From Coleofasciculus sp. LEGE 07092 (GTDB lineage: Bacteria > Cyanobacteriota > Cyanobacteriia > Cyanobacteriales > Coleofasciculaceae): a stretch of 50,452 bases of DNA. A program made the translations under genes and the position numbers. The stretch spans positions 1-50,452 of the forward strand of contig NZ_JADEWY010000033.1 in assembly GCF_015207375.1 (NCBI RefSeq), written 5' to 3'. The notes beneath the pieces are model-generated. The model searched no databases. It was not told where the DNA came from and saw nothing but the letters and a program-made list of their open reading frames with translations. Of the stretch, positions 33,816 to 48,024 are shown piece after piece. The stretch's first letter is position 1; each line of letters starts with the position of its first letter.

Positions 33816-34305
33816 GTTTCAATCCCTGATAGGGATTATAGAGGATTTCGACTTTTTGCAGGAGAGAGCCGAGCTGCCCAAGAAGGCTCAAGTTTCAATC
33901 CCTGATAGGGATTATAGAGGATTTCGACCACTCACCATCGCGGTTATGGGAGTCCTGTAGGGCATCAGGTGGTTTCAATCCCTGATAGGGATTATAGAGG
34001 ATTTCGACCTGGAATAAAGCACAGCGCTGGTGCATCTACTACGCAAGAATAGTGTTTCAATCCCTGATAGGGATTATAGAGGATTTCGACACACAAGCAA
34101 TGGAAAAATTGATAAAGATAGCGGAAGAGTTTCAATCCCTGATAGGGATTATAGAGGATTTCGACTCATATCCATTCTGGGGAAAAATAGGTTTTGCGTT
34201 TCAATCCCTGATAGGGATTATAGAGGATTTCGACCCACTTGAGGCTGTCGAGTCGGCTTGAGCTTGAAGTTTCAATCCCTGATAGGGATTATAGAGGATT
34301 TCGAC
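33816..34305 (-). CRISPR. Type I-D CRISPR array, 7 repeats and 6 spacers
   Basis: Seven identical 37-base repeats start at 33816, 33892, 33972, 34054, 34129, 34198 and 34269. On the transcribed minus strand each repeat ends in AGGGATTGAAAC, giving the 8-base handle ATTGAAAC, and contains the seven-pair stem AATCCCT/AGGGATT. Read from the plus strand, spacers are 39, 43, 45, 38, 32 and 34 bases long, an unusually wide range. Orientation is set by the handle, by the leader lying between array and cas2 at higher coordinates, and by the cas genes reading the same way. Even the trailer-end repeat is perfect. Confidence 0.97.
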
Positions 34306-36764: not shown

Positions 36765-37610
36765 TTATTGATGATTCAACCGCCTTACCATTCCCATCCC
36801 CATTGTCGTCTTGCGTCCGACGCCACTATAAAGGGCAAAGTTGGCTAAGGCATTAATTTGCTTAATAACGAGAGGTTCAACATTTCCCAACAGGCGAAAG
36901 CTCATCGCGCCAACACAGCCGATAAATTTGCTGCGAGAATCAGTAACGAGTTCTGTATGGATGTTGAAAAAACTGGGAAAGATTGAATCTAGAATAGTTT
37001 TGGGTAGTTCAATGCCACTGTACTGATTCCAGCGCTTAATTAAACTGTTAAAGACTAAATCTCGTGTCGGTAAAGCACAGTCATGTTGCTTTTGACGAAA
37101 AGCAGTAGGGGTGCAGAAGCAAAAATCGAGTTGGCGATCGCTATCTGACGATTGCTCATAAAGTTGAGCATAACTGATGGCATTTGCCCAAGGTTGAGGG
37201 GATTGAGGAGTCCCTAAAATGCTGGTAATAAGCAAATCAGCAGGTCCTAGATGCCAAGGGCGATTGGGGTTGAGGTTGAGCCATAGTTGGGTGAGTTGGC
37301 TAAATAGGGTGTCATCCAGGAGGGAAATACGCCACCAGCAAGGAGTTCCCGCAGCGATGGGCTTGGTGTGCTCTGCTTGCAGAATGTGATTGTGATTTGT
37401 AGGGGCGCACGGCGGTGCGCCCCTACGGACAATTTGCAAAGGGCTGAGGGTAAAGGGTTTGTCTGCTTTGGCTTCATGGAGATAGTCTCCTAATTCGCGA
37501 TCGACGGAACTAACGAGGTTAAGGAATAGGGCGTGGAAATGCCGCCCCGTCAAGAATTGCAGGGGGATGGGGGATTGGGGGAGGAGGTTGAGGATTAGGC
37601 TGTGGGGCAT
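36765..37610 (-). CDS. cas6: CRISPR RNA endonuclease Cas6
   Basis: A 281-residue RAMP-type Cas6, which cuts the repeat 3' of its hairpin and leaves the ATTGAAAC handle. Family marks are an early LTGRHFHALFLNLV with candidate catalytic His, the FCFCTPTAFR segment and the C-terminal glycine-rich loop GVGRKTTMGMGMVR. Residues about 61-72 (IVRRGAPPCAPT) come from an in-frame palindromic repeat inserted at 37399-37426. It lies eight bases downstream of csc1 in the effector operon. Confidence 0.94.
   Translation of the reverse strand: MPHSLILNLLPQSPIPLQFLTGRHFHALFLNLVSSVDRELGDYLHEAKADKPFTLSPLQIVRRGAPPCAPTNHNHILQAEHTKPIAAGTPCWWRISLLDDTLFSQLTQLWLNLNPNRPWHLGPADLLITSILGTPQSPQPWANAISYAQLYEQSSDSDRQLDFCFCTPTAFRQKQHDCALPTRDLVFNSLIKRWNQYSGIELPKTILDSIFPSFFNIHTELVTDSRSKFIGCVGAMSFRLLGNVEPLVIKQINALANFALYSGVGRKTTMGMGMVRRLNHQ
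37399..37426. repeat. Palindromic repeat inserted in frame in cas6
   Basis: GTAGGGGCGCAC and GTGCGCCCCTAC form a perfect twelve-pair stem with loop GGCG. This hairpin is a common dispersed repeat in cyanobacterial genomes. In cas6 it is read through in frame and adds a short Arg/Ala/Pro-rich loop. Confidence 0.75.
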
Positions 37611-37618
37611 TTTTTGAA

Positions 37619-38317
37619 TTAACTGCTAAATCGGTATTGCATTTGAGCGGGAATTTTCAGATTGTCAAATTCGTAATATTGCCCTCGAATTTTGATGTTT
37701 TGAATCAAGCTAACCGGGGGCATATTAATCACGTCGTAACTGATGACTTGATGGGAGAACATCACATCTAGAGGATTGAGGGGATAAGGGAAGGTAAATT
37801 CACCTTCTGATTGCTTGAATTTGGTAATTTCTCCAACCGTCACCTCAGCCTTACTCATCCATTTACCCAAGCGAATCCATTTTGGTAACTTCAGAGGCTT
37901 TTGAGCGATTGCAAAGAACTCAAATCTACTTTCAGGTGCAATTTCCTTTGCTCTGCCAAAACTAGGAATGTTCTTCTGGGTTTTCTGCATCTCAACATGG
38001 TAGCGGTTATCCGCATATTTCCAGGTATTGAGAACCGAGGTATGATTCACTGCCCGTGCTGGAGTAACATAAATTCCTTGCTGGTTAAGGGGTGTTAAAT
38101 GTTCCTCATACTTGGGAATTTGTTCAGGGCAGAAGTAGCGATAGGAGTGTTCTTCAGAAACACGGGTAGAGTAAGCTTCACTATCGACTAATCCCAATGC
38201 ATAACAAAGAGCATAATTGTGCAGCATGGGTTCGGTTTCGTACAATCGCCCTATCTCACGAGTCGCAAAGTAAAGGCTGTCATGAAGTTCTAGCTGACAA
38301 CGGTAAATAATTGTCAT
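37619..38317 (-). CDS. csc1: Type I-D Cascade subunit Csc1 (Cas5d)
   Basis: A 232-residue RAMP protein with the Csc1 pattern: N-terminal YRCQLELHDSLYFATREIGR, then EPMLHNYALCYALGL, and the late MFSHQVISYDVINMPPVSLI. In type I-D Cascade it caps the handle end of the crRNA. The gene starts five bases after the csc2 stop. Length is normal for the family and no motif is missing. Confidence 0.94.
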   Translation of the reverse strand: MTIIYRCQLELHDSLYFATREIGRLYETEPMLHNYALCYALGLVDSEAYSTRVSEEHSYRYFCPEQIPKYEEHLTPLNQQGIYVTPARAVNHTSVLNTWKYADNRYHVEMQKTQKNIPSFGRAKEIAPESRFEFFAIAQKPLKLPKWIRLGKWMSKAEVTVGEITKFKQSEGEFTFPYPLNPLDVMFSHQVISYDVINMPPVSLIQNIKIRGQYYEFDNLKIPAQMQYRFSS

Positions 38318-38322
38318 TTTTT

Positions 38323-39363
38323 TTATCCTGCCTTACCAGACTTTCCTGCTTTAGCTTTTTCCCCTTCAGGTTTTTGCTTGATATGCTTTTGATTGTAAGC
38401 TTTGGCTTCTTCATCAGCTTTTTGCAAAACCTGCTTAATACCTTCTTCACTTCCTGTTAAAGTCTTTACTTCATTTAACAGAGCAGTGAACTGAGTACCA
38501 ATAAAATCGGTATGCACAATAAACTCCTCAGACATTAATGTTTCAATCGCACTTGTAGCAGCAGCAATTACATCATCTTCATTGAGTGGATCGCGGGAAT
38601 TTATCTTGTTGTAAGCTTGTAGTTTGTCGTAGATAGCTTGTGTCCACAGTAGGTTACTCGTAATCTCACCATCGGCAAATACCACACCAATTAATTGATT
38701 ACGAACTCGACCTGTACGAGTTGTTTGAGCACCATAATGACGTGTCCGTAAAATGTTATTGAGAACATATAAAAAACCAGCTTCTGTCGGGTCTTTTAGC
38801 GTTACAATGCTAGGGAAGAAAACCTGAGGCTTAATATGATCTTGCTGATTAATTCGGCTAGTCACTTCACCGGGTTTAGAACCTGCCTCACCTTTAGAAG
38901 CCATTGTGCCATTTTCAAAAGGAGCATTTAGGGTAAACGTTTCGTGAGATTCATCAAAAGCAGTGATAGAAAATGCTGTATCAACTACTACTTTTGACTT
39001 CTCTGAACCAGAGTCACCGATCGCAAATCCATAGATAATACAATCAGGATTATTCATCGCAAACTTGACGTTATATTCACAATCTTCAGCCGTCATCAAT
39101 CCATAGTTTCGCAGTAACTCCCGTCCTACTAGACGTTCTGGAGTAGATTGCTTGCGCTTAAACATCGTTATACGGCTGATAGGGGCTTGATTTTCGGCTT
39201 TTATTCCGGCTCTCACCCGTGCTTTATTTAACTCTCCATCTGTTTGAAATAAGGGGTAAGATTCGGTGATACGAACCGTTAAAAAATGAACATATTTTCC
39301 CATTGGTTTGTAGGGAATTTCGGCGTGGAATAATTTAGAGTCAAGGGTTTTGAGTAAAGACAT
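38323..39363 (-). CDS. csc2: Type I-D Cascade backbone subunit Csc2 (Cas7d)
   Basis: A 346-residue Cas7-family RAMP that polymerises along the crRNA spacer. Family segments are VHFLTVRITESYPLFQTDGE, RITMFKRKQSTPERLVGREL and TRHYGAQTTRTGRVRNQLIG. The backbone thumb of Cas7 proteins flips out every sixth guide base, which matters for the pseudo-spacer described at 44764. The C-terminal Lys/Gly-rich tail (KPEGEKAKAGKSGKAG) is unusual and may be a species extension. Confidence 0.95.
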   Translation of the reverse strand: MSLLKTLDSKLFHAEIPYKPMGKYVHFLTVRITESYPLFQTDGELNKARVRAGIKAENQAPISRITMFKRKQSTPERLVGRELLRNYGLMTAEDCEYNVKFAMNNPDCIIYGFAIGDSGSEKSKVVVDTAFSITAFDESHETFTLNAPFENGTMASKGEAGSKPGEVTSRINQQDHIKPQVFFPSIVTLKDPTEAGFLYVLNNILRTRHYGAQTTRTGRVRNQLIGVVFADGEITSNLLWTQAIYDKLQAYNKINSRDPLNEDDVIAAATSAIETLMSEEFIVHTDFIGTQFTALLNEVKTLTGSEEGIKQVLQKADEEAKAYNQKHIKQKPEGEKAKAGKSGKAG

Positions 39364-39399: not shown

Positions 39400-39750
39400 C
39401 TAGGCAACAAGAACTTGAACAATAATTCGCATGAGTGGCTCTAAATCGTCTGGAACTCGATAGCTATCCAAGCCTTGTTCAATGTGTTTTGTGGCGCGAT
39501 TGAGACGCCCAAATTGCCATATCTTGCCAGTTGTGACAGCACCGATTAGAGTAGATTGTTCAGGAGTTCTATCCCACTGATCGAGGGCGAGCATTTCTGC
39601 AACAAGTTGTGTAAAACCGTAGTCTAAATCTTCGCGCTTTGCTTCAATGACTAGTAACTCTGTTTCACTTCTCAAAAGGTAATATAAGTAACCTTGCAGT
39701 TGTTCCGTTTGTTTCCTTAATTGCAAAACTGGGAAGCGTAGATAAATCAC
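39400..39750 (-). CDS. Small PD-(D/E)XK nuclease-like protein within the I-D operon
   Basis: A 116-residue protein whose core ELLVIEAKREDLDYGFTQLV (about residues 31-50) looks like the strand-ExK-helix-Q element of restriction-endonuclease-like folds (Glu36, Lys38, Gln48). The usual upstream acidic ligand is not obvious, so it may be a shortened or non-catalytic version. Its start overlaps the cas10d stop by four bases, and csc2 starts 36 bases downstream, so it is made with Cascade. It is not one of the named I-D subunits. A role in adaptation, interference support or cleavage of other DNA is only inference. Confidence 0.75.
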   Translation of the reverse strand: MIYLRFPVLQLRKQTEQLQGYLYYLLRSETELLVIEAKREDLDYGFTQLVAEMLALDQWDRTPEQSTLIGAVTTGKIWQFGRLNRATKHIEQGLDSYRVPDDLEPLMRIIVQVLVA

Positions 39751-40238
39751 GACTTATCCTCCTCACTTGTTAAGCTATCGTCTTCAGAATTTTCTTGCTC
39801 TTGTTCTTTCCTTGCACGATTTTCTTTGTCATCTTCTAAGCGATACAAGAACTCACAAGTATCTCGAATCAGGTTGATTTGACGCCCTGCTAAACGGGCG
39901 CGATCGCCTGCAAAAGATTTCTCAAATACCTCTACAACAAAGTACTGAGCAAACTCTAAAATTGCCTGTCGTTCCTCTTCTCGATTTTTGAACATCCAAC
40001 GCCCTTCGGCTGTGGACGCATGAACCCGATCCATGAGCTTGAACACTTCAGCAGCTACCATATAAACCATTACTTCACCTTGAAAACTTAAATCAGCTTC
40101 AAGAATAGTTTTTGAGGCAATGTCAATGGGTTTTAATACTGCATTCGCTTTGGGATTGTATCGCTTATTGGCTCGGTAAAATTTACGATAAAGTTCAGTC
40201 AAGTTCTTGGGATGATTCAACTGTGATTCTTCTCCCAC
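39747..40238 (-). CDS. cas11d: Cas11d small subunit from an internal start within cas10d
   Basis: Within cas10d and in the same frame, GGAGG (40247-40251) stands eight bases before GTG (40236-40238). The product would be the last 163 residues, beginning GEESQLNHPKNLTELYRKF. Type I-D systems are known to make their Cas11d small subunit by internal initiation in this part of cas10d, and no separate small-subunit gene exists here. The near-perfect ribosome site at the expected place makes this call strong, though start choice by proteomics is not shown here. Confidence 0.75.
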   Translation of the reverse strand: MGEESQLNHPKNLTELYRKFYRANKRYNPKANAVLKPIDIASKTILEADLSFQGEVMVYMVAAEVFKLMDRVHASTAEGRWMFKNREEERQAILEFAQYFVVEVFEKSFAGDRARLAGRQINLIRDTCEFLYRLEDDKENRARKEQEQENSEDDSLTSEEDKS

Positions 40239-43200
40239 AATCAGTTCCTCCAATTCAGAGTTAAATTTTGCATAAGGGTCAAAGCATGGGTAAAAATGGT
40301 AAGCATAAAGCTTAATTTTGCTAATGCTTGGCGCGTCAATTTTTTGGTTCCGAACCCACTTATTGAGGTAGCTAAACACATAGAGTGGACTGGTTTCAAA
40401 ATCTTTTGCCAGTTCAGTAAATCTTCCCCAATTAGAGTCATAACCAGATTTTCCCTGTCGTGCATTTACATCTAAATGAATGGCATAAGCAGCAGTTAAT
40501 ACATTAAGAGGCGCTGGATATTCCTTACCGTCTTCTGTCCAACCTTCAAGGATGTAGTCAAGACGGAAGCGATCGCGTTTTGTCAGTACCCTAAACGCTT
40601 GTGGCGCACTATCGAGAAATACGCTTTCCTCAAACTCCGCACCATCATTAAATGGCGGGATAGGGGACTCTGAGACTACAGTTTTGACATCCAAAATCAT
40701 TGGGAAAGCAAAGGCTAACCAGCTAGGCATTACCCAAGATTCCGTATCAGTGCCATCCCGTCCAGGAGGTAATGCCATGAAGTAGAATGTTAAGGGCTGG
40801 TCTTCTGGGTAAGATAGTTTAAAAGTTCTGTCTTTTCCTGGCTCGATGTTTTCATCAATAAGGAAAGCATCTACGCTTTGGTAGCGATCGCGTTCTAAGT
40901 TCGCTTGCAAATCCTTACTAATAAAGTGGTTACGGATGCTGGTATCAAAACGAGTTTGAGCAATACCACTATATGCCTTCTGCAGAAACTTATTTGTCTC
41001 TGGCGTGAAGTAATAAGTTGGATAGAAATAGAGATAACGATACTTCCCATCCTCAAACTTCTTACCCACAGCTTGAGTTTGATTCATCAAGATTTGCCTG
41101 AGCATCATTTCAATTCCAGCAATGCTAGAAATATTTCGTTTAGCGTTAGAACCTCCTAACATTTGCTTATTGGTATAAACCTGAGGGGTGAATAAAACCG
41201 CTGACTCCATCTGCTCCGTTACAGTGTAAGGAGAATGAGAAATAGAGCAAATCAGTTGTCGTCCTCTCCCCTGTTTTTTCGCTAACTGATAGCCTGACAA
41301 CTCCTGGAGAAATACTTCAGCCGACGCTGTTGTAGAAATCACTTTTCCTGGTAGCATGACAACTCGCGTCACCCAAAGCCGCAAATCCTCCCAACCATCC
41401 GGTAACTGGTACTGTGACACAATGGGTTTAATGAGTTGAGAAATATGCGCGATCGCATCTTCACAAATTTGCTGAATGTCTCTAGTCTCAATTCCAGGAT
41501 GACACTCTAGATATTTAGCGGCTAAGTAGTACCATTCATAGGGGACACCGCCAGTATTTCCTTTGAGTTTGTGTTCCTTCAGACTTTCATTAATTCTCTG
41601 GATTTCTCGAATCGGAGGTAGGTACTGCGAGAGATTCCAAAACTTGGCAATTTCTTCAACAATATCTAGATGGGGTATTTTAGTAAGTTTCTTATCTTTC
41701 TTCCGTTCTGCTTCGATTTGATTAACTCGTTCGCCCCAAATTTTACGACTGATTAAGTCTCCAAATTCAGCAATCTGATCAATCCGAATATCGTCAGTAA
41801 ACTTCAAGTTATAATCAGCCGACAAAACATCCTGCTGCTGAAACTTAATCAGATTTTCACTACGGCTTTTGGCAACAGAGTTTTTGCTGGGATTGAGAAT
41901 CTTTAGTGTGGCACTAAGGGCGACTTGCATTAAACCTGTATCATCAAAAAACAAGTTGTAATAGTCTGCATATTTCATCCCCTTGCCATCTCTGCCAAAG
42001 CCTGTTTGTCGCAAGCGTAACTGACTGGCACAGAAGTATTTAATCTTGTTAACCACCCGTTCTGGTAAATCTTCTACTTGAACAGAAGGCGCGTCTCGTC
42101 GTGCTAAATAAATTACGCCAGTTGGCAGGTAGAGGAGTGGTTCATAGTAAGTGCAATCCTCATTATTAAGGCTGACGTGAGCTTCCATCAAGGCGTTATT
42201 CACTACATTAGTTAGTACGCCTCGGTTTTCAGCAATGCTGTGGTAAGTAAATTTCAGTTGTCCATTACTTAGGCTATGAATTAACTCGTTGAGCCTGGTA
42301 TTTTCAGCATCTTGGGGATGTTTGATTATGGAAGCTAGGGAGTCGGCTAAACAGGTTAAGTCTGAGAGGGTGCGGAGAGTGCGATCGCGCAATACTGGGT
42401 TTAGTCCAAACTCCGAGAAATTCCAGTTAGTATCCCAACGTCGTTGAGCGTTATAAGCGACACAGAGTAAATCATCCAGATACTCTCGATAACCTTCTGG
42501 ATTATCAGGGTTGAGAAAGCGATCAATTCCTAGCTCAACAGCCATAATATCAATAATTTCTCTGTGTTCTAGCAAAGATAAGCTCCGAATTTTGCTATCT
42601 TCGTCTTTTCGTAGGTCTTTGTATTTTTGTGGTAATGCGCCAAAGCTACTGTAGTTAAACTTTTCAAAGTCATGAAGAATAAACCCAGCTATTACAATTC
42701 TCCGTTCTCGTTCTCTCACCACCCGTTGCACAGTGGTATTCAGTTTTTCCAACCGTTGCTCAATTAAATTAGCTGGAAATAGCCCATTCAGTAAATGGGT
42801 ATTGAGCGATTGATCGCCTGCATTATCCCGCCGAACCCTATCTTTTCCTTCTGCTTCATTTTTGCGATCGAGTTCATCAAAAAACTTACCGCCTTTTGCA
42901 GTAACACCAATTGCAACCCGCAGCAGATTCGGTAATACATATTCGGCGAAGTCACTCATTACCTTGTCGCCAGGATTTTGAGATTGCATTGCCTCTCGTA
43001 GTAACTTGAGAGTTAGTAACTCACGAGACTGGGGTTCAATAGTGCGATCGCTAGGTTCAAATTCCGAGTCTGCATCATCATCTTGCAACCAATCCTCATT
43101 CTGTTCGGTTAACCTCTTCCCCAACCCCTCTCCTGCAAGGAGAGGGGAGTCCGGCTCCCCCATTCCCTTGTAGGGAAGGGGGGTTAGGTCTGATTCATCT

Positions 43201-43262
43201 TGATGATCAAATAGCGATAACTGTTTCTCTTCTTGTTCAGAACCTTTACGTTTCTTAGCCAT
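39747..43262 (-). CDS. cas10d: Type I-D large subunit Cas10d (Csc3) with HD nuclease domain
   Basis: A 1171-residue Cas10d. In type I-D the HD nuclease sits here rather than in Cas3; its HD pair is visible in GFILHDFEKFNY (about residues 190-200). Residues about 26-51 come from an in-frame dispersed repeat (YKGMGEPDSPLLAGEGLGKR), making the protein a little long. The last 163 residues form the small-subunit-like helical domain that is probably also translated alone. It starts two bases after the hepT stop and overlaps the small nuclease-like gene by four bases, so the toxin-antitoxin pair and Cascade genes are one transcript. Confidence 0.95.
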   Translation of the reverse strand: MAKKRKGSEQEEKQLSLFDHQDESDLTPLPYKGMGEPDSPLLAGEGLGKRLTEQNEDWLQDDDADSEFEPSDRTIEPQSRELLTLKLLREAMQSQNPGDKVMSDFAEYVLPNLLRVAIGVTAKGGKFFDELDRKNEAEGKDRVRRDNAGDQSLNTHLLNGLFPANLIEQRLEKLNTTVQRVVRERERRIVIAGFILHDFEKFNYSSFGALPQKYKDLRKDEDSKIRSLSLLEHREIIDIMAVELGIDRFLNPDNPEGYREYLDDLLCVAYNAQRRWDTNWNFSEFGLNPVLRDRTLRTLSDLTCLADSLASIIKHPQDAENTRLNELIHSLSNGQLKFTYHSIAENRGVLTNVVNNALMEAHVSLNNEDCTYYEPLLYLPTGVIYLARRDAPSVQVEDLPERVVNKIKYFCASQLRLRQTGFGRDGKGMKYADYYNLFFDDTGLMQVALSATLKILNPSKNSVAKSRSENLIKFQQQDVLSADYNLKFTDDIRIDQIAEFGDLISRKIWGERVNQIEAERKKDKKLTKIPHLDIVEEIAKFWNLSQYLPPIREIQRINESLKEHKLKGNTGGVPYEWYYLAAKYLECHPGIETRDIQQICEDAIAHISQLIKPIVSQYQLPDGWEDLRLWVTRVVMLPGKVISTTASAEVFLQELSGYQLAKKQGRGRQLICSISHSPYTVTEQMESAVLFTPQVYTNKQMLGGSNAKRNISSIAGIEMMLRQILMNQTQAVGKKFEDGKYRYLYFYPTYYFTPETNKFLQKAYSGIAQTRFDTSIRNHFISKDLQANLERDRYQSVDAFLIDENIEPGKDRTFKLSYPEDQPLTFYFMALPPGRDGTDTESWVMPSWLAFAFPMILDVKTVVSESPIPPFNDGAEFEESVFLDSAPQAFRVLTKRDRFRLDYILEGWTEDGKEYPAPLNVLTAAYAIHLDVNARQGKSGYDSNWGRFTELAKDFETSPLYVFSYLNKWVRNQKIDAPSISKIKLYAYHFYPCFDPYAKFNSELEELIVGEESQLNHPKNLTELYRKFYRANKRYNPKANAVLKPIDIASKTILEADLSFQGEVMVYMVAAEVFKLMDRVHASTAEGRWMFKNREEERQAILEFAQYFVVEVFEKSFAGDRARLAGRQINLIRDTCEFLYRLEDDKENRARKEQEQENSEDDSLTSEEDKS
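43111..43187. repeat. Dispersed double-hairpin repeat inserted in frame in cas10d
   Basis: About 77 bases containing two perfect hairpins, CCCCTCTCCT/AGGAGAGGGG (43125-43147) and TTCCCT/AGGGAA (43163-43177). It is a familiar cyanobacterial interspersed repeat, usually intergenic. Here it is translated as a Pro/Gly-rich linker near the Cas10d N-terminus. Confidence 0.75.
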
Positions 43263-43264
43263 TC

Positions 43265-43696
43265 TTACTCTCCTAATCGATTAATATATTCAGAAATTTG
43301 CCGGATATAGATTGGATAGTAAATTAAAGCAGATTTAATAGCATCAAATAACTTGACATAATCTATCTCAAGATACCGATGAGCCAATATGTTACGCAAT
43401 CCTGCTGACTTTGATAGCTCTTCTGCCACTTCATGGGTAATAATTCCATATTGTTCAGCTTGCAGAAAAGAGCTTCGATTAGTTACTGATTCAATCTCTT
43501 GGATTCGAGTGAGAATATGCTCATTTATATCAACGGCGGCTTGGACTATCACTTCTATAATTCTTTCAGAAATTATTCGGTGGTCAAAACTATTCAAATA
43601 ATCTTCCAAACTCATTGATTCAAACCGCCTAAGTTCCCGAAAATTGTCTGCAATAAACTTAAGCCTTGCCAAAACTACAATCCGCTCAATACTCAT
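43265..43696 (-). CDS. hepT: HepT-family HEPN RNase toxin
   Basis: A 143-residue four-helix HEPN protein (DUF86/HepT). The catalytic RX4HXY motif is intact as RNILAHRY: Arg101, His106, Tyr108. HepT toxins cut RNA; their MntA partner silences them by transferring AMP to the motif Tyr. Its start overlaps the mntA stop by four bases (ATGA), and cas10d starts two bases after its stop. It is therefore embedded between cas3' and cas10d, in the effector operon, an unusual place for a toxin gene. Confidence 0.92.
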   Translation of the reverse strand: MSIERIVVLARLKFIADNFRELRRFESMSLEDYLNSFDHRIISERIIEVIVQAAVDINEHILTRIQEIESVTNRSSFLQAEQYGIITHEVAEELSKSAGLRNILAHRYLEIDYVKLFDAIKSALIYYPIYIRQISEYINRLGE

Positions 43697-44142
43697 ACCA
43701 AACCCCTCTCTTTGAGGAATTCATCAATACCTTGGCAAAGGTTATGACTTAGCTCTTGCATTTTTACATCACTCATGAGAGCTTTCTGTTTAAATTCATC
43801 AAACTCCCCTGGTTCTTTTTCGTAGAGGAGCTTGCCATCACGCGCAACAAAATGTGCAATAAGAGGCGAAGCTCGATGTAACTCTACAACATCAATTTCG
43901 TCGCTGTTGAGGCTAAAAACTTGACCAATAACTCCAGGAACTTCAAACCACGCAAAACCTCTATCTTTACAAAATTCTTCTCTGAGTTCTTCATCGTAGA
44001 GAGCGGCAAAATCCCAATCACTATTTGCATGGGTATCGCCTCGGGCACGAGAACCAAATAGAACTAGCATTTTGAGATAAGGTATTTTCTCTGGAAGTTG
44101 TAGAGAAACTACCTTGAGTTCTTCCAGGGTTGGTGTTTTCAT
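43693..44142 (-). CDS. mntA: MntA-family nucleotidyltransferase antitoxin
   Basis: A 149-residue minimal nucleotidyltransferase. The GSX10DXD motif is exact: Gly30-Ser31, then Asp42 and Asp44 in SDWDFA, with a third acidic residue in DEIDVVEL. MntA antitoxins AMPylate the HepT motif Tyr. It precedes hepT with a four-base overlap, the standard order of this toxin-antitoxin type. The start ATG at 44142 lies 79 bases after the 63-residue gene stop. Confidence 0.92.
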   Translation of the reverse strand: MKTPTLEELKVVSLQLPEKIPYLKMLVLFGSRARGDTHANSDWDFAALYDEELREEFCKDRGFAWFEVPGVIGQVFSLNSDEIDVVELHRASPLIAHFVARDGKLLYEKEPGEFDEFKQKALMSDVKMQELSHNLCQGIDEFLKERGLV

Positions 44143-44221: not shown

Positions 44222-44413
44222 TTATGCTGCCAACCTCACCTGCTCTTTAAGAGTTTTGTAAGATTGCTGTGGAAACAGATCGAGTTCCAGTTGTTTGTAC
44301 TGGACGCATTGCCGAACTTCCTCGAACTGCTTTTCCTCACGATCAATTGCAGCAGACTGCTTAGATGTGTAAGTACGCAGATCGAAGAGTTCTAGCTGCT
44401 TATGGTTTCCCAT
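44222..44413 (-). CDS. Small protein with duplicated KQLEL motif, between cas3' and mntA
   Basis: A 63-residue protein preceded by a GGAGG ribosome site (44423-44427). It has two similar motifs, KQLELFDL (residues 5-12) and KQLELDLF (40-47), separated by a charged helix. I have the impression that small cyanobacterial proteins with such motifs recur, but no function is known to me. A hairpin (CCATTCA/TGAATGG, 44426-44446) partly overlaps the ribosome site, so translation may be regulated. It lies in the cas operon between cas3' and the toxin-antitoxin pair, on the far side of the mini-CRISPR region. Confidence 0.7.
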   Translation of the reverse strand: MGNHKQLELFDLRTYTSKQSAAIDREEKQFEEVRQCVQYKQLELDLFPQQSYKTLKEQVRLAA

Positions 44414-44583: not shown

Positions 44584-44613
44584 CTCGGTCTCTGTACTTG
44601 AAGGCTGACGCCA
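44584..44613 (+). promoter_or_regulatory. Candidate target site of the degenerate mini-CRISPR guide
   Basis: This stretch lies exactly 180 bases upstream of the pseudo-spacer and matches it in blocks: CTG, ACTTG, AGGCT and ACGCC, broken at guide positions 12, 18, 24 and also 6 and 30. Positions 1, 5 and 8 also differ. Upstream of it there is no repeat-like sequence, so it is not simply another repeat-spacer unit. The three bases before it are AAG, not the GTN reported as the PAM for characterised I-D systems, which is a weakness. A TTTAAT promoter-like box lies at 44636-44641, just downstream. Confidence 0.55.
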
Positions 44614-44687
44614 CCATCTAGAAGTTAGCACAGTTTTTAATAGTTCAGTGTGTGAAGACAAGGGGAATATTTGAGGCACTTGCTCTG

Positions 44688-44693
44688 TATAAT
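44688..44693 (+). promoter_or_regulatory. Perfect -10 box (TATAAT) ahead of the tiny ORF and mini-CRISPR
   Basis: TATAAT is the exact sigma-70 -10 consensus; transcription would begin near 44700 and run into the six-residue ORF and the pseudo-repeats. No good -35 box is seen at the right distance (GAATAT at spacing 17), so activation or weak expression is likely. Confidence 0.5.
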
Positions 44694-44711
44694 TAAAGTT
44701 GGAGGGTAAAA

Positions 44712-44732
44712 ATGTCGTTTTCAAACTATTGA
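44712..44732 (+). CDS. Tiny six-residue ORF (MSFSNY), CreT-like candidate
   Basis: ATG at 44712 has GGAGG (44701-44705) six bases upstream, an ideal ribosome site, and a stop after six codons. It follows the perfect TATAAT by only 18 bases and directly precedes the first pseudo-repeat. CreT toxins known beside CreA RNAs are similarly tiny, with a strong ribosome site. Chance ribosome sites do occur, so the call rests on the combination with the mini-CRISPR and its target. Confidence 0.35.
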   Translation: MSFSNY

Positions 44733-44838
44733 TCGACCTGTAATCCCTATCAGGGATTGAAATTTCGCCCACTGAACTTGTAGGCTTACGCCCTCCCACT
44801 GAATGACAGTGACCCAAATCCCTATCAGGGATTGAAAC
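44727..44838 (+). CRISPR. Degenerate mini-CRISPR (two pseudo-repeats, one 38-base pseudo-spacer), CreA/CreR-like RNA
   Basis: Two pseudo-repeats occupy 44727-44763 and 44802-44838 if given the array's 37-base length. Only their 3' parts are conserved: AATCCCTATCAGGGATTGAA, with the seven-pair hairpin, then AT in the first copy and AC in the second. The 5' halves have drifted completely. The space between them is exactly 38 bases (44764-44801), a normal spacer size. Cas6 could therefore release an RNA with handle ATTGAAAT. It reads on the plus strand, opposite to the true array, and the second pseudo-repeat ends on the first base of the cas3' stop codon. Such half-decayed units beside cas genes are the hallmark of CreA and CreR RNAs. 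Confidence 0.75.
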
Positions 44839-47024
44839 TATCCAGCAATCCATATTTCACCTCCTTGACTTTTAAACGAGTAAGCAAGCGTATCCAGCAA
44901 CAAAGCCGACTGACTGAACGCAATAGAATAAGGTGCAACTGCATCGTGAAAACTGTACCGATCGCTAATTGGGTAAATCGCAAAGTGCATGGGAAGCCGC
45001 AAACGCGATCGCACTTCCGCAACCGGACGCCGTAGCACATAACAAACTAACGCTTCCTTCCTCAACCGCTTATTGATTTCACCAATCCAATAGTTCTCAG
45101 GTTGCCAAACCTCGATACCCGTCAAAACCTGAACCTTCCAAGCATCTGCGATCGCATCCAACTTGCCGGAATAGGTAAATCGCCAGTTCAGCCGTTCCTC
45201 CCGATAAGCGCGTAACTTCAGGAATGCGAGACAGTGTGCAAATCGTCCTTTGGCAATAGGTTGTCCGAGGCGTTGAGAGGTTTCGAGAAGCGATCGCATA
45301 AACTCCTCTTTCGTCATCACCTCAATTTCTAGATTACTCAAAATCCCTGGTAAATCATAAGTTTTAAATCTATCTACCTCACTCGATTCAGTTAAATCAT
45401 AGATGCCACACTGGAGAGAACTAAACCCTCGAAAACTAGCAGCATCTTCAGCAATCGGATTTCCCTTATCCCTACCTGAAAGTTCCTGCCACTCTTTTTC
45501 CCATGCCTTAGTACGACCAAAAACCTTTTTCAGGCTAGTATTAAAGACTTCTTCGCAAGCTGCCTGAAATGCCTTCTGACTACCTTCATACTGCTGCTTG
45601 ATAGTCTTATGTCCTAGTTGTCGGCAAATCCTCAGCGATTGTACAGTACCCCAGCGAGAGTAATAACCTTCAAAATCATTGATTCTGCGGTAATTTTCCC
45701 GAATTTGGTTGTGGAAGAAACAACGATCATAGATACCAGTTTCTTCTAAAGGTGGAGAGTCACCTTGAAACAGCCGTTCTACTAAAAAATTAGGTATCAA
45801 TGCATAAGCAGTAAACGTTTCAAACTTAATCTTTTCTCCCTTGCGTTCATAGCCATCATGTCGTCCCAAGCGCCCCAAACGCTGAACAAAGCTACCTGCA
45901 TCTGCTGATTCAAAGATTAGAAAGTTAATCTTGAAGTCAACCCCAACATCAATTGTGCTAGTACCGAGAACCAAATCGGCTAAAAGCGATCGCTCTTTTT
46001 CCTCCTTCCCAGATAACCCCGTATTCTCCCCAACCACCAACCCATGAGGCTGCAACAGTTCCCGAAAAAACGATGTCAGACGCTTCACTGCTGCAATTGA
46101 GTTGAGAATGATTGCCCCTTTACTCCCTGGATACTGCTGAAAGTGAGCAAGGATTAAGTCGCTATTGTCTTTCAACCAAGTTTCAGAAGCCTTATTACTG
46201 GATTCAAGAGAGATAAACTGAAGAGAAATTTCGCGTGATACCTGCCGCCATCCTTGTGCTTGCAGTTGCTGACACTGAGAGTGTGTATCTGGAAACTGAT
46301 ACTTATTCTCATCAATTGGGTTAATCTCCTTACACCGAAATCCAGCTATTTTCAATCGCTCTAATAGTTGTTTATTCGGAGTGGCTGACAAAAAGAGAAA
46401 TTGCTTGTGACGATTAGTGTTTTTGATTAACAGCATTGTGTTAATCACGCTGGCGATTTGCGGAGCCTGGAAAACATGGAATTCATCAAAAATGAATAGA
46501 TTAAAATCTTTGTCAATCCGGTTCCACAGCTTGTCAGGACTATCATCACGAGTTAAATATTTACCTTGATGTAAATAGTGAAAAATATCAGGATTGCTTA
46601 GGAGAATTTCTGAATTACCAGCACGAGACTCAATCGCTGCGGCTTTCTTTAATCCCTGATTTTCAGCATAAATCTCTAACTCTTGCCCACTGAGTCGCAC
46701 CACACGCGGCTTAATATCAGGCTTAAATTTTTCAACATACTCCTGAATTTGCATTTCTTGGTCACGGGCAAGCTCATTCGTTGGATACAGTCCGATCGCA
46801 CAAAAATAGGTCAGTAATGTCTCTAAATAAGCCGCCAAACTTTTGCCATCACCCGTCATTGCAGTGTTAAAAATAACGTCAATATTTGGGTCGCGTATTG
46901 CCTCCAACGTTGCCGCTTGATGCCAAGAAAGTGACCAACCCTCGGGTAATTTCACATCCTTTGGTATCTCGGATGCAGGGCAAGAGTAAACAGGCTTGAG
47001 AGTTATGGAATATACGGATGTCAT
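44838..47024 (-). CDS. cas3: Type I-D Cas3' helicase
   Basis: A 728-residue superfamily 2 helicase without an HD domain, as expected for I-D, where the nuclease part is in Cas10d. Motifs are TGDGKS (57-62), DEFH (180-183), LFLSATP, and QRLGRLGR as motif VI. It unwinds target DNA after Cascade recruitment. It is the first gene of the minus-strand operon and diverges from the WYL regulator. The start ATG lacks a good ribosome site. Its stop codon abuts the second pseudo-repeat of the plus-strand mini-CRISPR, so a transcript from there would be antisense to the 3' end of cas3'. Confidence 0.95.
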   Translation of the reverse strand: MTSVYSITLKPVYSCPASEIPKDVKLPEGWSLSWHQAATLEAIRDPNIDVIFNTAMTGDGKSLAAYLETLLTYFCAIGLYPTNELARDQEMQIQEYVEKFKPDIKPRVVRLSGQELEIYAENQGLKKAAAIESRAGNSEILLSNPDIFHYLHQGKYLTRDDSPDKLWNRIDKDFNLFIFDEFHVFQAPQIASVINTMLLIKNTNRHKQFLFLSATPNKQLLERLKIAGFRCKEINPIDENKYQFPDTHSQCQQLQAQGWRQVSREISLQFISLESSNKASETWLKDNSDLILAHFQQYPGSKGAIILNSIAAVKRLTSFFRELLQPHGLVVGENTGLSGKEEKERSLLADLVLGTSTIDVGVDFKINFLIFESADAGSFVQRLGRLGRHDGYERKGEKIKFETFTAYALIPNFLVERLFQGDSPPLEETGIYDRCFFHNQIRENYRRINDFEGYYSRWGTVQSLRICRQLGHKTIKQQYEGSQKAFQAACEEVFNTSLKKVFGRTKAWEKEWQELSGRDKGNPIAEDAASFRGFSSLQCGIYDLTESSEVDRFKTYDLPGILSNLEIEVMTKEEFMRSLLETSQRLGQPIAKGRFAHCLAFLKLRAYREERLNWRFTYSGKLDAIADAWKVQVLTGIEVWQPENYWIGEINKRLRKEALVCYVLRRPVAEVRSRLRLPMHFAIYPISDRYSFHDAVAPYSIAFSQSALLLDTLAYSFKSQGGEIWIAG

Positions 47025-47128
47025 ATTTTTGTCCGTATCTAAAATTTATTTGTCCGTATTTGTGGACTTTTCCACTATGCCAGACAAAATAGAAATTAGC
47101 AAGGACAAAATAGAAATTTGTCCGTATC
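47012..47128. promoter_or_regulatory. Divergent cas3'/WYL promoter with repeated TTTGTCC half-sites
   Basis: Three copies of TTTGTCCGTAT(C/T) lie at 47028-47039, 47049-47060 and 47117-47128; the first two are 21 bases apart. ATACGGA at 47012-47018 makes an inverted pair with the first copy. The direct repeat GACAAAATAGAAATT occurs at 47083 and 47104, again 21 bases apart, and its GACAAAA is the inverse of the TTTGTC core. The 21-base spacing equals two helical turns, so a dimeric regulator, most likely the adjacent WYL protein, could bind cooperatively. A small hairpin GTGGA/TCCAC is at 47062-47075. Confidence 0.65.
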
Positions 47129-47148
47129 AACTTAAAACAGGAGCGCTA

Positions 47149-48024
47149 GTGAGCCGAAAAGGTCAGTCAATTACTTTGTCCATCTCCGACGAAGATAAAG
47201 CCCAGCTTGAAGCGATCGCTCGTGAATTGGGCATGATGCGGGGCGATCGCCCGAATATCTCAGGATTAGTAGAAGCGATCGCTCGCCAGCAATTCTTAGT
47301 TGCGCCAAACAACGACTGGTCAGAAACTCGTATTCAATCACTTGTGCAGGCTGTCCATACCTTGACGGATGCTGGGCAGATTGAAGAAGCTACAGAAATT
47401 GCGAGTCTGCTACTCGAACGTAGTGAACTATCTATGCCTCTACGAGAACAAATAGAAGACTCCCTCAAGACCCCTCCCCCACCTTGGCGATTAGAAATCG
47501 AACGCTACATCCGCCGCCAGCAACCTTTTCAAATTGCCTACCGCGATGCCGCCGACCGCCCTTGGAGTTTCACCATTCGCCACGCACAGATTACCTTGCA
47601 CGAAAAACGGGAATATCTGGACTGTTGGTGCGACGAAACAGAAGGAAATCAAGACTTACCAGAACTGCATCACAACTGGTGTCTGCGCCTAGATCGCATT
47701 CCGATAGGGACTGCAATTGTGCCTGTGGAGGGACAGTGGTGTTCTGATCTAAGTCAGATAGAAGTTGAAATGCATCTTTTTGGTGGCTTAGCCTTTGCTT
47801 ACAAAGCTAAACCTACAGATATCAGTAATGACTGGTTATCAGAAAAACCACCAGTTCGACAAGTAGTTCGGCGAATCTCAAGTACCTTCTGGTTTATACG
47901 AGAGGTTTTACCATACGGTTCCGATTGCGAAATAGTGTCACCAGAAACTGTGCGAGCGCGCGTGATCGAAAAACTAATCACGATGTGCCAAAACTACAAA
48001 CTGGATTTCACAGAATCGTCCTAA
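47149..48024 (+). CDS. WYL-domain transcriptional regulator of the I-D locus
   Basis: A 291-residue protein. The N-terminal part (SRKGQSITLSISDEDKAQLE) suits a ribbon-helix-helix or short helical DNA-binding region. The C-terminal half has the WYL pattern: PFQIAYRDAADRPWSFTIRH, the CWCDETEG strand, and VRRISSTFWFIREVLPYGSD. The GTG at 47149 is chosen because AGGAG stands five bases upstream; the frame stays open to 46996, but that stretch is the promoter. In Synechocystis 6803 a WYL protein (Sll7009) next to the I-D locus is reported to repress it, and this gene has the same divergent position. WYL domains often sense nucleic acid or nucleotide ligands. Confidence 0.85.
   Translation: MSRKGQSITLSISDEDKAQLEAIARELGMMRGDRPNISGLVEAIARQQFLVAPNNDWSETRIQSLVQAVHTLTDAGQIEEATEIASLLLERSELSMPLREQIEDSLKTPPPPWRLEIERYIRRQQPFQIAYRDAADRPWSFTIRHAQITLHEKREYLDCWCDETEGNQDLPELHHNWCLRLDRIPIGTAIVPVEGQWCSDLSQIEVEMHLFGGLAFAYKAKPTDISNDWLSEKPPVRQVVRRISSTFWFIREVLPYGSDCEIVSPETVRARVIEKLITMCQNYKLDFTESS

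Follow-up and report, generated by a model that had tools for sequence, protein, structure and literature searches.

A putative CreR-like guide beside cas3' of a cyanobacterial type I-D locus and its two predicted targets before the effector operon

The type I-D CRISPR-Cas locus of Coleofasciculus sp. LEGE 07092 carries, next to its cas3' gene, a mini-CRISPR that probably encodes a CreR-like guide and would bring I-D Cascade to two sites before the effector operon, namely a predicted DNA operator (site A) and a site best explained as leader RNA (site B). The guide matches these nearby sites in the six-base rhythm of Cascade and thus likely steers the complex to turn down its own operon. The sequences of guide and sites, their conservation, their register and their covariation are documented below, and together they provide a sequence-level record, across 50 loci, of the way Cascade would pair with natural regulatory targets, in which the paired positions are kept and every sixth is ignored.

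The type I-D locus and the mini-CRISPR beside cas3'

A profile search places the locus on the minus strand of the window, which is the whole 50,452-nucleotide stretch of DNA analysed (W among the numbered loci). The genes cas10d/csc3, csc2, csc1, cas3' and cas6 are all found, which assigns the locus to type I-D, described as the most prevalent type I system among surveyed cyanobacterial genomes (PMC11903412). The order is cas3', a gap, a small ORF, MntA, HepT, cas10d/csc3, csc2, csc1, cas6, cas4, cas1, cas2 and the array. The features discussed here are as follows.

44838..47024, minus strand: cas3' helicase (TIGR03158), with the mini-CRISPR adjoining its stop codon
44801..44838, plus strand: psi-repeat 2 (repeat-like core at 44817-44838), which reaches the final base of cas3'
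44764..44800, plus strand: psi-spacer, the guide TTCGCCCACTGAACTTGTAGGCTTACGCCCTC, positions 1 to about 36
44727..44763, plus strand: psi-repeat 1, compared with the array repeat GTCGAAATCCTCTATAATCCCTATCAGGGATTGAAAC
44688..44693, plus strand: TATAAT, candidate -10 element of the mini-CRISPR promoter, a sequence match only
44621..44659, minus strand: site A, PAM GTC (44659-44657) and protospacer (44656-44621), predicted Cascade operator
44584..44619, plus strand: site B, predicted RNA target, which lacks a GTN PAM and agrees with the guide at 23 of the 27 positions that are not multiples of six
44222..44413, minus strand: small ORF of 63 aa, the first gene past sites A and B
43693..44142, minus strand: MntA antitoxin, cargo (NCBIfam NF047752, above cut-off)
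43265..43696, minus strand: HepT toxin, cargo (NCBIfam NF047751, above cut-off)
39747..43262, minus strand: cas10d/csc3 (TIGR03174), the effector gene that comes first in the operon presumed to be regulated
38323..39363, minus strand: cas7d/csc2 (TIGR03157)
37619..38317, minus strand: cas5d/csc1 (TIGR03159)
36765..37610, minus strand: cas6 (TIGR01877)
33816..34305, minus strand: ordinary I-D CRISPR array of 7 repeats, repeat GTCGAAATCCTCTATAATCCCTATCAGGGATTGAAAC

The mini-CRISPR consists of two repeats on the plus strand, set directly at the cas3' stop (44727-44838) and outside the main array. Psi-repeat 1 is identical to the array repeat over bases 16-36, is mostly unlike it over the first 15 and ends in T where the array repeat has C. 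Its last eight bases, ATTGAAAT, are what we take, from general knowledge of type I and I-D crRNAs, to be the crRNA 5' handle, and the letters of this predicted handle and of a putative repeat hairpin are both present in the mini-CRISPR. Elsewhere in the same genome (L101, contig C293, about 2340-2560) lies another mini-array of two repeats, which has the same repeat but a different spacer; neither a class A nor a class B site for it was found in the 5 kb scanned there or in the window.

The cargo genes belong to a type VII toxin-antitoxin system, the HepT and MntA models scoring 90.5 and 84.4 bits against curated cut-offs of 60 each, and a Pfam scan of the window cargo ORFs likewise gave HepT-like and nucleotidyltransferase matches. 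The HepT ORF overlaps MntA and ends two bases before cas10d. The small ORF had no match in the Pfam scan and has homologues in L029, L054 and L056. Rfam at its gathering threshold reported only the array repeats in the window. A WCX-domain (WYL-like) regulator lies at 46996-48024, divergent from cas3', and an annotated WYL protein occupies the same position in relatives L030 (Stanieria PCC 7437) and L031 (Picosynechococcus sp. PCC 7117); the window regulator is therefore probably the counterpart of Sll7009, described as a repressor in Synechocystis (PMC10212523), and probably constitutes a second layer of cas control.

For comparison, 82 loci were oriented: the window, 19 of 20 from a related-locus search, five of 23 plasmid matches and 57 further genome stretches. 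In the search of 75 genomes, matches that were partial or below about 29% identity were mostly left out, and G058 was skipped because its match coordinates were the same as those of L031. Of the 66 loci with cas3' at 45-100% identity, 50 (the window included) have a mini-CRISPR immediately 3' of that gene. The same search found none in the 16 loci at 30-42% identity (L085-L100), where handle-like strings in L086, L092, L094 and L095 were discarded manually because they did not look like repeats. The scan misses repeats without A[T/C]TGAAA, and L027 was left out of it. No guide was used from 32 of the 82 loci; besides the low-identity group, these are L017-L020, L024, L025, L032, L059, L068, L070, L072-L074, L077, L083 and L084, in which the repeat is lost, single or degenerate or the contig ends (L017, L018, L019, L020, L024 and L074 being manual exclusions). 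L013 and L048 are the same sequence and several guides are near-identical, so the 50 loci are not independent, and 26 non-redundant guides (75% identity) were used where independence matters. The gene cas10d follows on the same strand in 50/50 loci. Between array and cas10d, tblastn recovered HepT and/or MntA in 28/50, PDDEXK in 23/50 and neither in 11/50; thus, the cargo varies while the cas operon is constant.

Two sites matched in a six-base register

The match that a sequence-only reading of this DNA had singled out lies at 44584, where alignment with the guide from 44764 gives exactly the letters and register described, with mismatches at guide positions 1, 5, 6, 8, 12, 18, 24, 30, 31 and 33-36. 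Scored over positions 1-32 minus the multiples of six, site B reaches 23/27. The probability of such a score at 0.25 per base is 8e-11 for a single position and 7.5e-8 over 900 positions. When shuffled guides were scanned against the upstream regions of the 50 loci, a score of 19 was reached by 9/5000 and exceeded by none. A pattern of guide positions 9-29, with the sixth bases free and up to three mismatches, finds only site B and the guide itself in the 6.7-Mb genome. At a threshold of at least 19/27, a site B is present in 27/50 loci, as against 15/1948 swapped guides (scores 19-22) and the 9/5000 shuffles; that of L080 (19/27), with its GTT, belongs more properly among the A sites, which leaves PAM-less B sites in 26/50.

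The earlier reading took the 44584 site for the DNA site to which Cascade is guided. The predicted PAM-dependent operator is instead site A at 44621-44659, absent from that reading, which in the window matches guide positions 1-3, 5 and 7-15, including nine of ten seed positions. GTN is given as the I-D PAM in Synechocystis (PMC10212523). With GTN, a seed of 9-10/10 and a distance of at most 400 nt, site A is found for 41/50 own guides as against 2/1948 swapped and 7/5000 shuffled ones. Even where the PAM is not required, GT still precedes 22 of 24 sites with a seed of at least nine among the 26 non-redundant loci. Lowering the seed to at least eight gives 43 loci with a site A, the best sites being preceded by GTT in 23 and GTC in 20, on the minus strand in 35/43, and 13 loci have two. 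Site A thus shows the partial spacer complementarity with PAM and seed, before the cas operon, that is found in CreR systems. One other site in the Coleofasciculus genome fits the site A pattern when a single mismatch is allowed; taken by itself, A is therefore not rare across the genome, and its weight comes from place and conservation.

A forty-fourth locus, L014, is added if the target base opposite guide base 6 is taken as missing (15/15, 0/300 shuffles), and in L021 and L023 a target base is missing at 11/12. These single-base deletions, together with an insertion in L060, are all located at guide base 6 or near 11/12, beside displaced bases, with the rest of the match intact. In L033 and L058, site A lies on the plus strand, 222-225 nt upstream of psi-repeat 1, and has a long match, unbroken in L033 over 16 bases with the sixth positions included, which suggests a recently renewed guide.

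At these cut-offs, 23 of the 50 loci have both sites, 20 only A, four only B (L009, L015, L049 and L061) and three neither by the ungapped test (L014, L022 and L030). By eye, a B-like element persists in L030 (Stanieria) and L074 beside a mini-CRISPR that is decayed or fused, a picture that would fit loss of the circuit by deletion. The sites abut tail to tail, 72-74 bases from start to start, in W, L029, L054 and L056, and the distance is 116-529 bases in 18 further loci having both. Among 18 non-redundant loci with a minus-strand A, a minus-strand TATAAT falls 26-29 bases into the protospacer in L016, L071 and L079, and TTGACA falls at 26 in L011 and L075, all of these promoter positions being consensus matches only; no sharp common promoter spacing was found across loci.

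The Cas7 backbone of type I effectors displaces every sixth guide base, and both sites follow this rhythm. In 21 non-redundant loci, site A matches the guide at 20/63 of positions 6, 12 and 18 versus 264/315 elsewhere in 1-17, and in 15 non-redundant loci, site B matches at 17/75 of positions 6-30 that are multiples of six versus 277/330 elsewhere in 4-29. Site A is kept at positions 1-5, 7-11 and 13-16 and not beyond, site B at 4-5, 7-11, 13-17, 19-23 and 25-29, and within the matched stretch the sixth positions are near chance at both. As the B sites had first been picked on non-sixth positions, the choice was repeated on all 32; this register-blind picking yields 24 sites, which match at a frequency of 0.30 at sixth positions versus 0.76-0.96 at the other phases. 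Leaving out another phase in place of the sixth finds 9-15 loci versus 27.

Both sites also covary with the guide outside the multiples of six. In the HTH group, 16 loci with related small HTH-like ORFs, the own pairs of guide and site scored better, for A as well as B, than every one of 2000 partner permutations; at the sixth positions, the observed value was reached by 1215 (A) and 625 (B) of 2000. In the window-type group, the observed value was reached by 29/2000 for B (n=5) and 169/2000 for A (n=4), and in the cc group by 82/2000 for B (n=4), although these groups are small, so that few distinct permutations exist and the test is weak. Between W and L029, on a plasmid of Anabaena sp. 90, 11 paired guide positions differ, of which B follows at eight, and three sixth positions differ, of which B follows at none; between W and L054, four guide positions differ and B follows at only one. 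Site B lags behind its guide: at the 451 pair-positions where the guides of two HTH-group loci differ, both B sites match at 197, one at 240 and none at 14. The same pair count for A gives 203, 61 and 7. The proposal of the sequence-only reading, that Cascade-type pairing has been selected while every sixth base drifts, is thus supported by the shuffles and by the register and covariation among relatives.

Site B as a predicted RNA target and the competing explanations

Site B differs from A at its start. The flank in the window is AAG, as had been pointed out, and not GTN, which is absent in 26/27 loci; at least one of positions 1-3 is mismatched in 25/27, each of the three matching in 33-41%. 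The base at -3 is A in 25/27 loci, and -4 and -3 are mostly GA (12 and 13 of 15 non-redundant). With no GTN and mismatches at 1-3, PAM-dependent binding of double-stranded DNA is unlikely. The site lies between array and cas10d, and a minus-strand transcript, from the strand of the cas genes, would be complementary to the guide. I-D Cascade is described as binding single-stranded RNA at about 11 nM whichever of the two tested flanks is present, and double-stranded DNA with GTT, with none or minimal binding for AAC or CGT (Schwartz et al. 2022, PMC9123187). Because Cascade of this type binds RNA without a PAM, site B is best explained as a single-stranded and most likely RNA target, and we infer that the DNA copy escapes attack through its missing PAM and weak start. 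A review lists the physiological role of I-D single-strand targeting as an open matter (PMC10212523).

The sequence next to B may form a structured element. A closing stem is jointly supported in 21 relatives, in which the own arms amount to -484.6 kcal/mol versus -435.2 for the best permutation, none of 20000 being as good; this swap test was run on the B loci other than W, L009, L029, L054, L056 and L080, thus on 21 of 27, and taken singly, 8/21 prefer their own arm over every other. In the shuffle test of single elements (without L080), 13/26 pass at p 0.025, and the stem of the window is not significant (p 0.11). The closing stem covaries, and in many relatives adjoins B on the strand of the would-be cas operon leader. 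G-U versus A-C counts are 36:28 in B elements, by which the strand of the element is not fixed, and no consensus structure emerged when 19 B elements were aligned with MAFFT and folded with RNAalifold. In HTH-type loci (e.g. L010, L076 and L078), a conserved stretch follows B on the minus strand, UCUCNACCCCC ... GGCUGGUUNAGUC, which is perhaps an inner stem (40/20000 permutations as good), and whose plus strand is faintly like the end of a CRISPR repeat. Two other roles for the B region were rejected: its flank is not a crRNA handle (1-3/8 identity in 27 loci), nor is B a second guide for A, which it matches at 6.2/10 seed positions versus 9.3 for the guide, with a distal match no better than the guide's (5.2 versus 5.3 of 15).

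The probability that site B resembles the guide by chance is negligible: a single case with an unusual PAM might be put down to accident, but no shuffled guide came above 19 where the window has 23, scores of 19-23 return in 26 further loci (L080 among them being really a site A), and shuffles and swaps together led us to reject it. It is also highly improbable that B is a decayed mini-CRISPR copy or an old spacer source with no present role. The flank before B in HTH-type loci (GGGGGTTGAGANT) does faintly resemble the repeat end AGGGATTGAAAC, but those of W-type and cc-type loci are not repeat-like by eye, and neutral decay would neither single out multiples of six (17/75 versus 277/330) nor make B track guide changes; on register and covariation, a plain decaying duplication was rejected.

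The remaining alternatives accept that B functions and differ in what it does. We think it unlikely that only A represses while B acts as a sponge that titrates guide-loaded Cascade, the leader keeping a switched-on operon on as in a bistable switch; complementarity of the B minus-strand transcript to the guide at 4-29 would suit tight single-strand binding, but the four B loci without detectable A would have nothing to relieve. Less probable again is that B is a second DNA site, at which a second Cascade, end to end with that on A, is held by the first despite the missing PAM. The 72-74-base distance in W, L029, L054 and L056 does equal two 36-base footprints, but the wider spacing in the 18 further loci, the absence of GTN and the poor match at positions 1-3 of B sites oppose it, as does the report of undetectable or minimal double-stranded DNA binding with the two non-GTT PAMs tested (PMC9123187). 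We also doubt a CreTA-like addiction, in which a toxin (HepT, PDDEXK or an unseen RNA) would be kept off while Cascade is intact, so that loss of CRISPR would be harmful. The frequency of HepT and/or MntA and of PDDEXK between array and cas10d fits this idea, but the 11/50 loci without either cargo match keep the mini-CRISPR, in the window MntA immediately precedes HepT and shares its strand, so that both would rise together, and no RNA toxin came to notice.

The reading preferred here, a CreR-like guide with a DNA operator and an RNA leader, would work as follows, its steps (guide transcription, repression, RNA binding and the effect on HepT/MntA) being predictions from sequence. The mini-CRISPR would produce a crRNA-like guide, the CreR of type I-D, to be loaded into Cascade. 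The complex would bind site A at the presumed promoter without full R-loop cutting and would there repress transcription of the small ORF, HepT/MntA and cas10d-csc2-csc1-cas6. Site B would be bound solely in single-stranded form, such as in the minus-strand transcript of the cas genes; this binding would add mRNA-level control or titrate the guide. With Cascade repressing its own operon, the free complex would keep its own production low, and both Cascade and the HepT/MntA cargo would go up once Cascade is lost or inhibited. A fuller version, to which we give slightly less than an even chance, is that one guide serves two kinds of target, a PAM-and-seed DNA operator read at positions 1-16 and a PAM-less, seed-avoiding, structured cas mRNA leader read at 4-29. 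The loci with B and no detectable A suggest that B can act alone. If the two-target version is true, I-D Cascade is a physiological RNA-binding regulator and the B elements form a novel type of leader RNA that senses Cascade and is conserved across cyanobacteria.

Relation to known systems

The sequence-only reading had called the arrangement a CreTA/CreR-like circuit in type I-D. At the level of sequence its CreR part is supported and the CreTA part is not, as no toxin RNA was recognised and 11/50 loci have no cargo match. CreR, a cas-regulating RNA, is named for types I-B, I-E and V-A (Liu et al., Cell Host Microbe, 2023, as given in PMC13131331) and is also described in PMC12737573. The likeness to these accounts lies in a mini-CRISPR beside cas, a spacer with PAM and seed match before the cas operon and a predicted autorepression by the system's effector; the differences are that the system here belongs to type I-D and frequently carries toxin-antitoxin cargo, and that it has a second long PAM-less site in six-base register, undescribed in the CreR accounts consulted. 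CreTA, as presented in PMC9458426 and PMC12948488 (Li et al. 2021), similarly has degenerate repeats, a promoter-matching spacer and toxin genes nearby, as in the window, but here no toxin RNA is recognised and the cargo is the protein pair HepT/MntA, absent in part of the loci. CrePA is portrayed as a Cascade-repressed toxin that senses anti-CRISPRs, to which the predicted release of cargo bears some likeness; its toxin typically has a KilA-N domain (PMC12737573). Pfam gave no KilA-N match in the three window cargo ORFs.

Mini-arrays with spacers partly complementary to the promoters of cas or cargo genes, mostly of type I, were reportedly collected by Shmakov et al. (NAR, 2023), and this collection may already list the site A half, possibly for I-D; we know of no PAM-less second site with a six-base register among those mini-arrays. 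Among the titles and abstracts listed in the searches, none describes an I-D CreR case. As far as this check extends, the site A half is thus new for I-D, CreR itself being known, and the site B half, a second PAM-less and register-true target, has no counterpart in the literature examined. CRISPR autoregulation would thereby be brought to type I-D and tied to toxin-antitoxin cargo.

The closest biochemical parallel to site B is the binding of single-stranded RNA by I-D Cascade as described by Schwartz et al. (2022, PMC9123187), which offers a basis for a PAM-free single-stranded target and differs in having been observed in vitro. Site B makes the question of I-D single-strand binding, listed as open in the review cited above (PMC10212523), directly testable at named sites.
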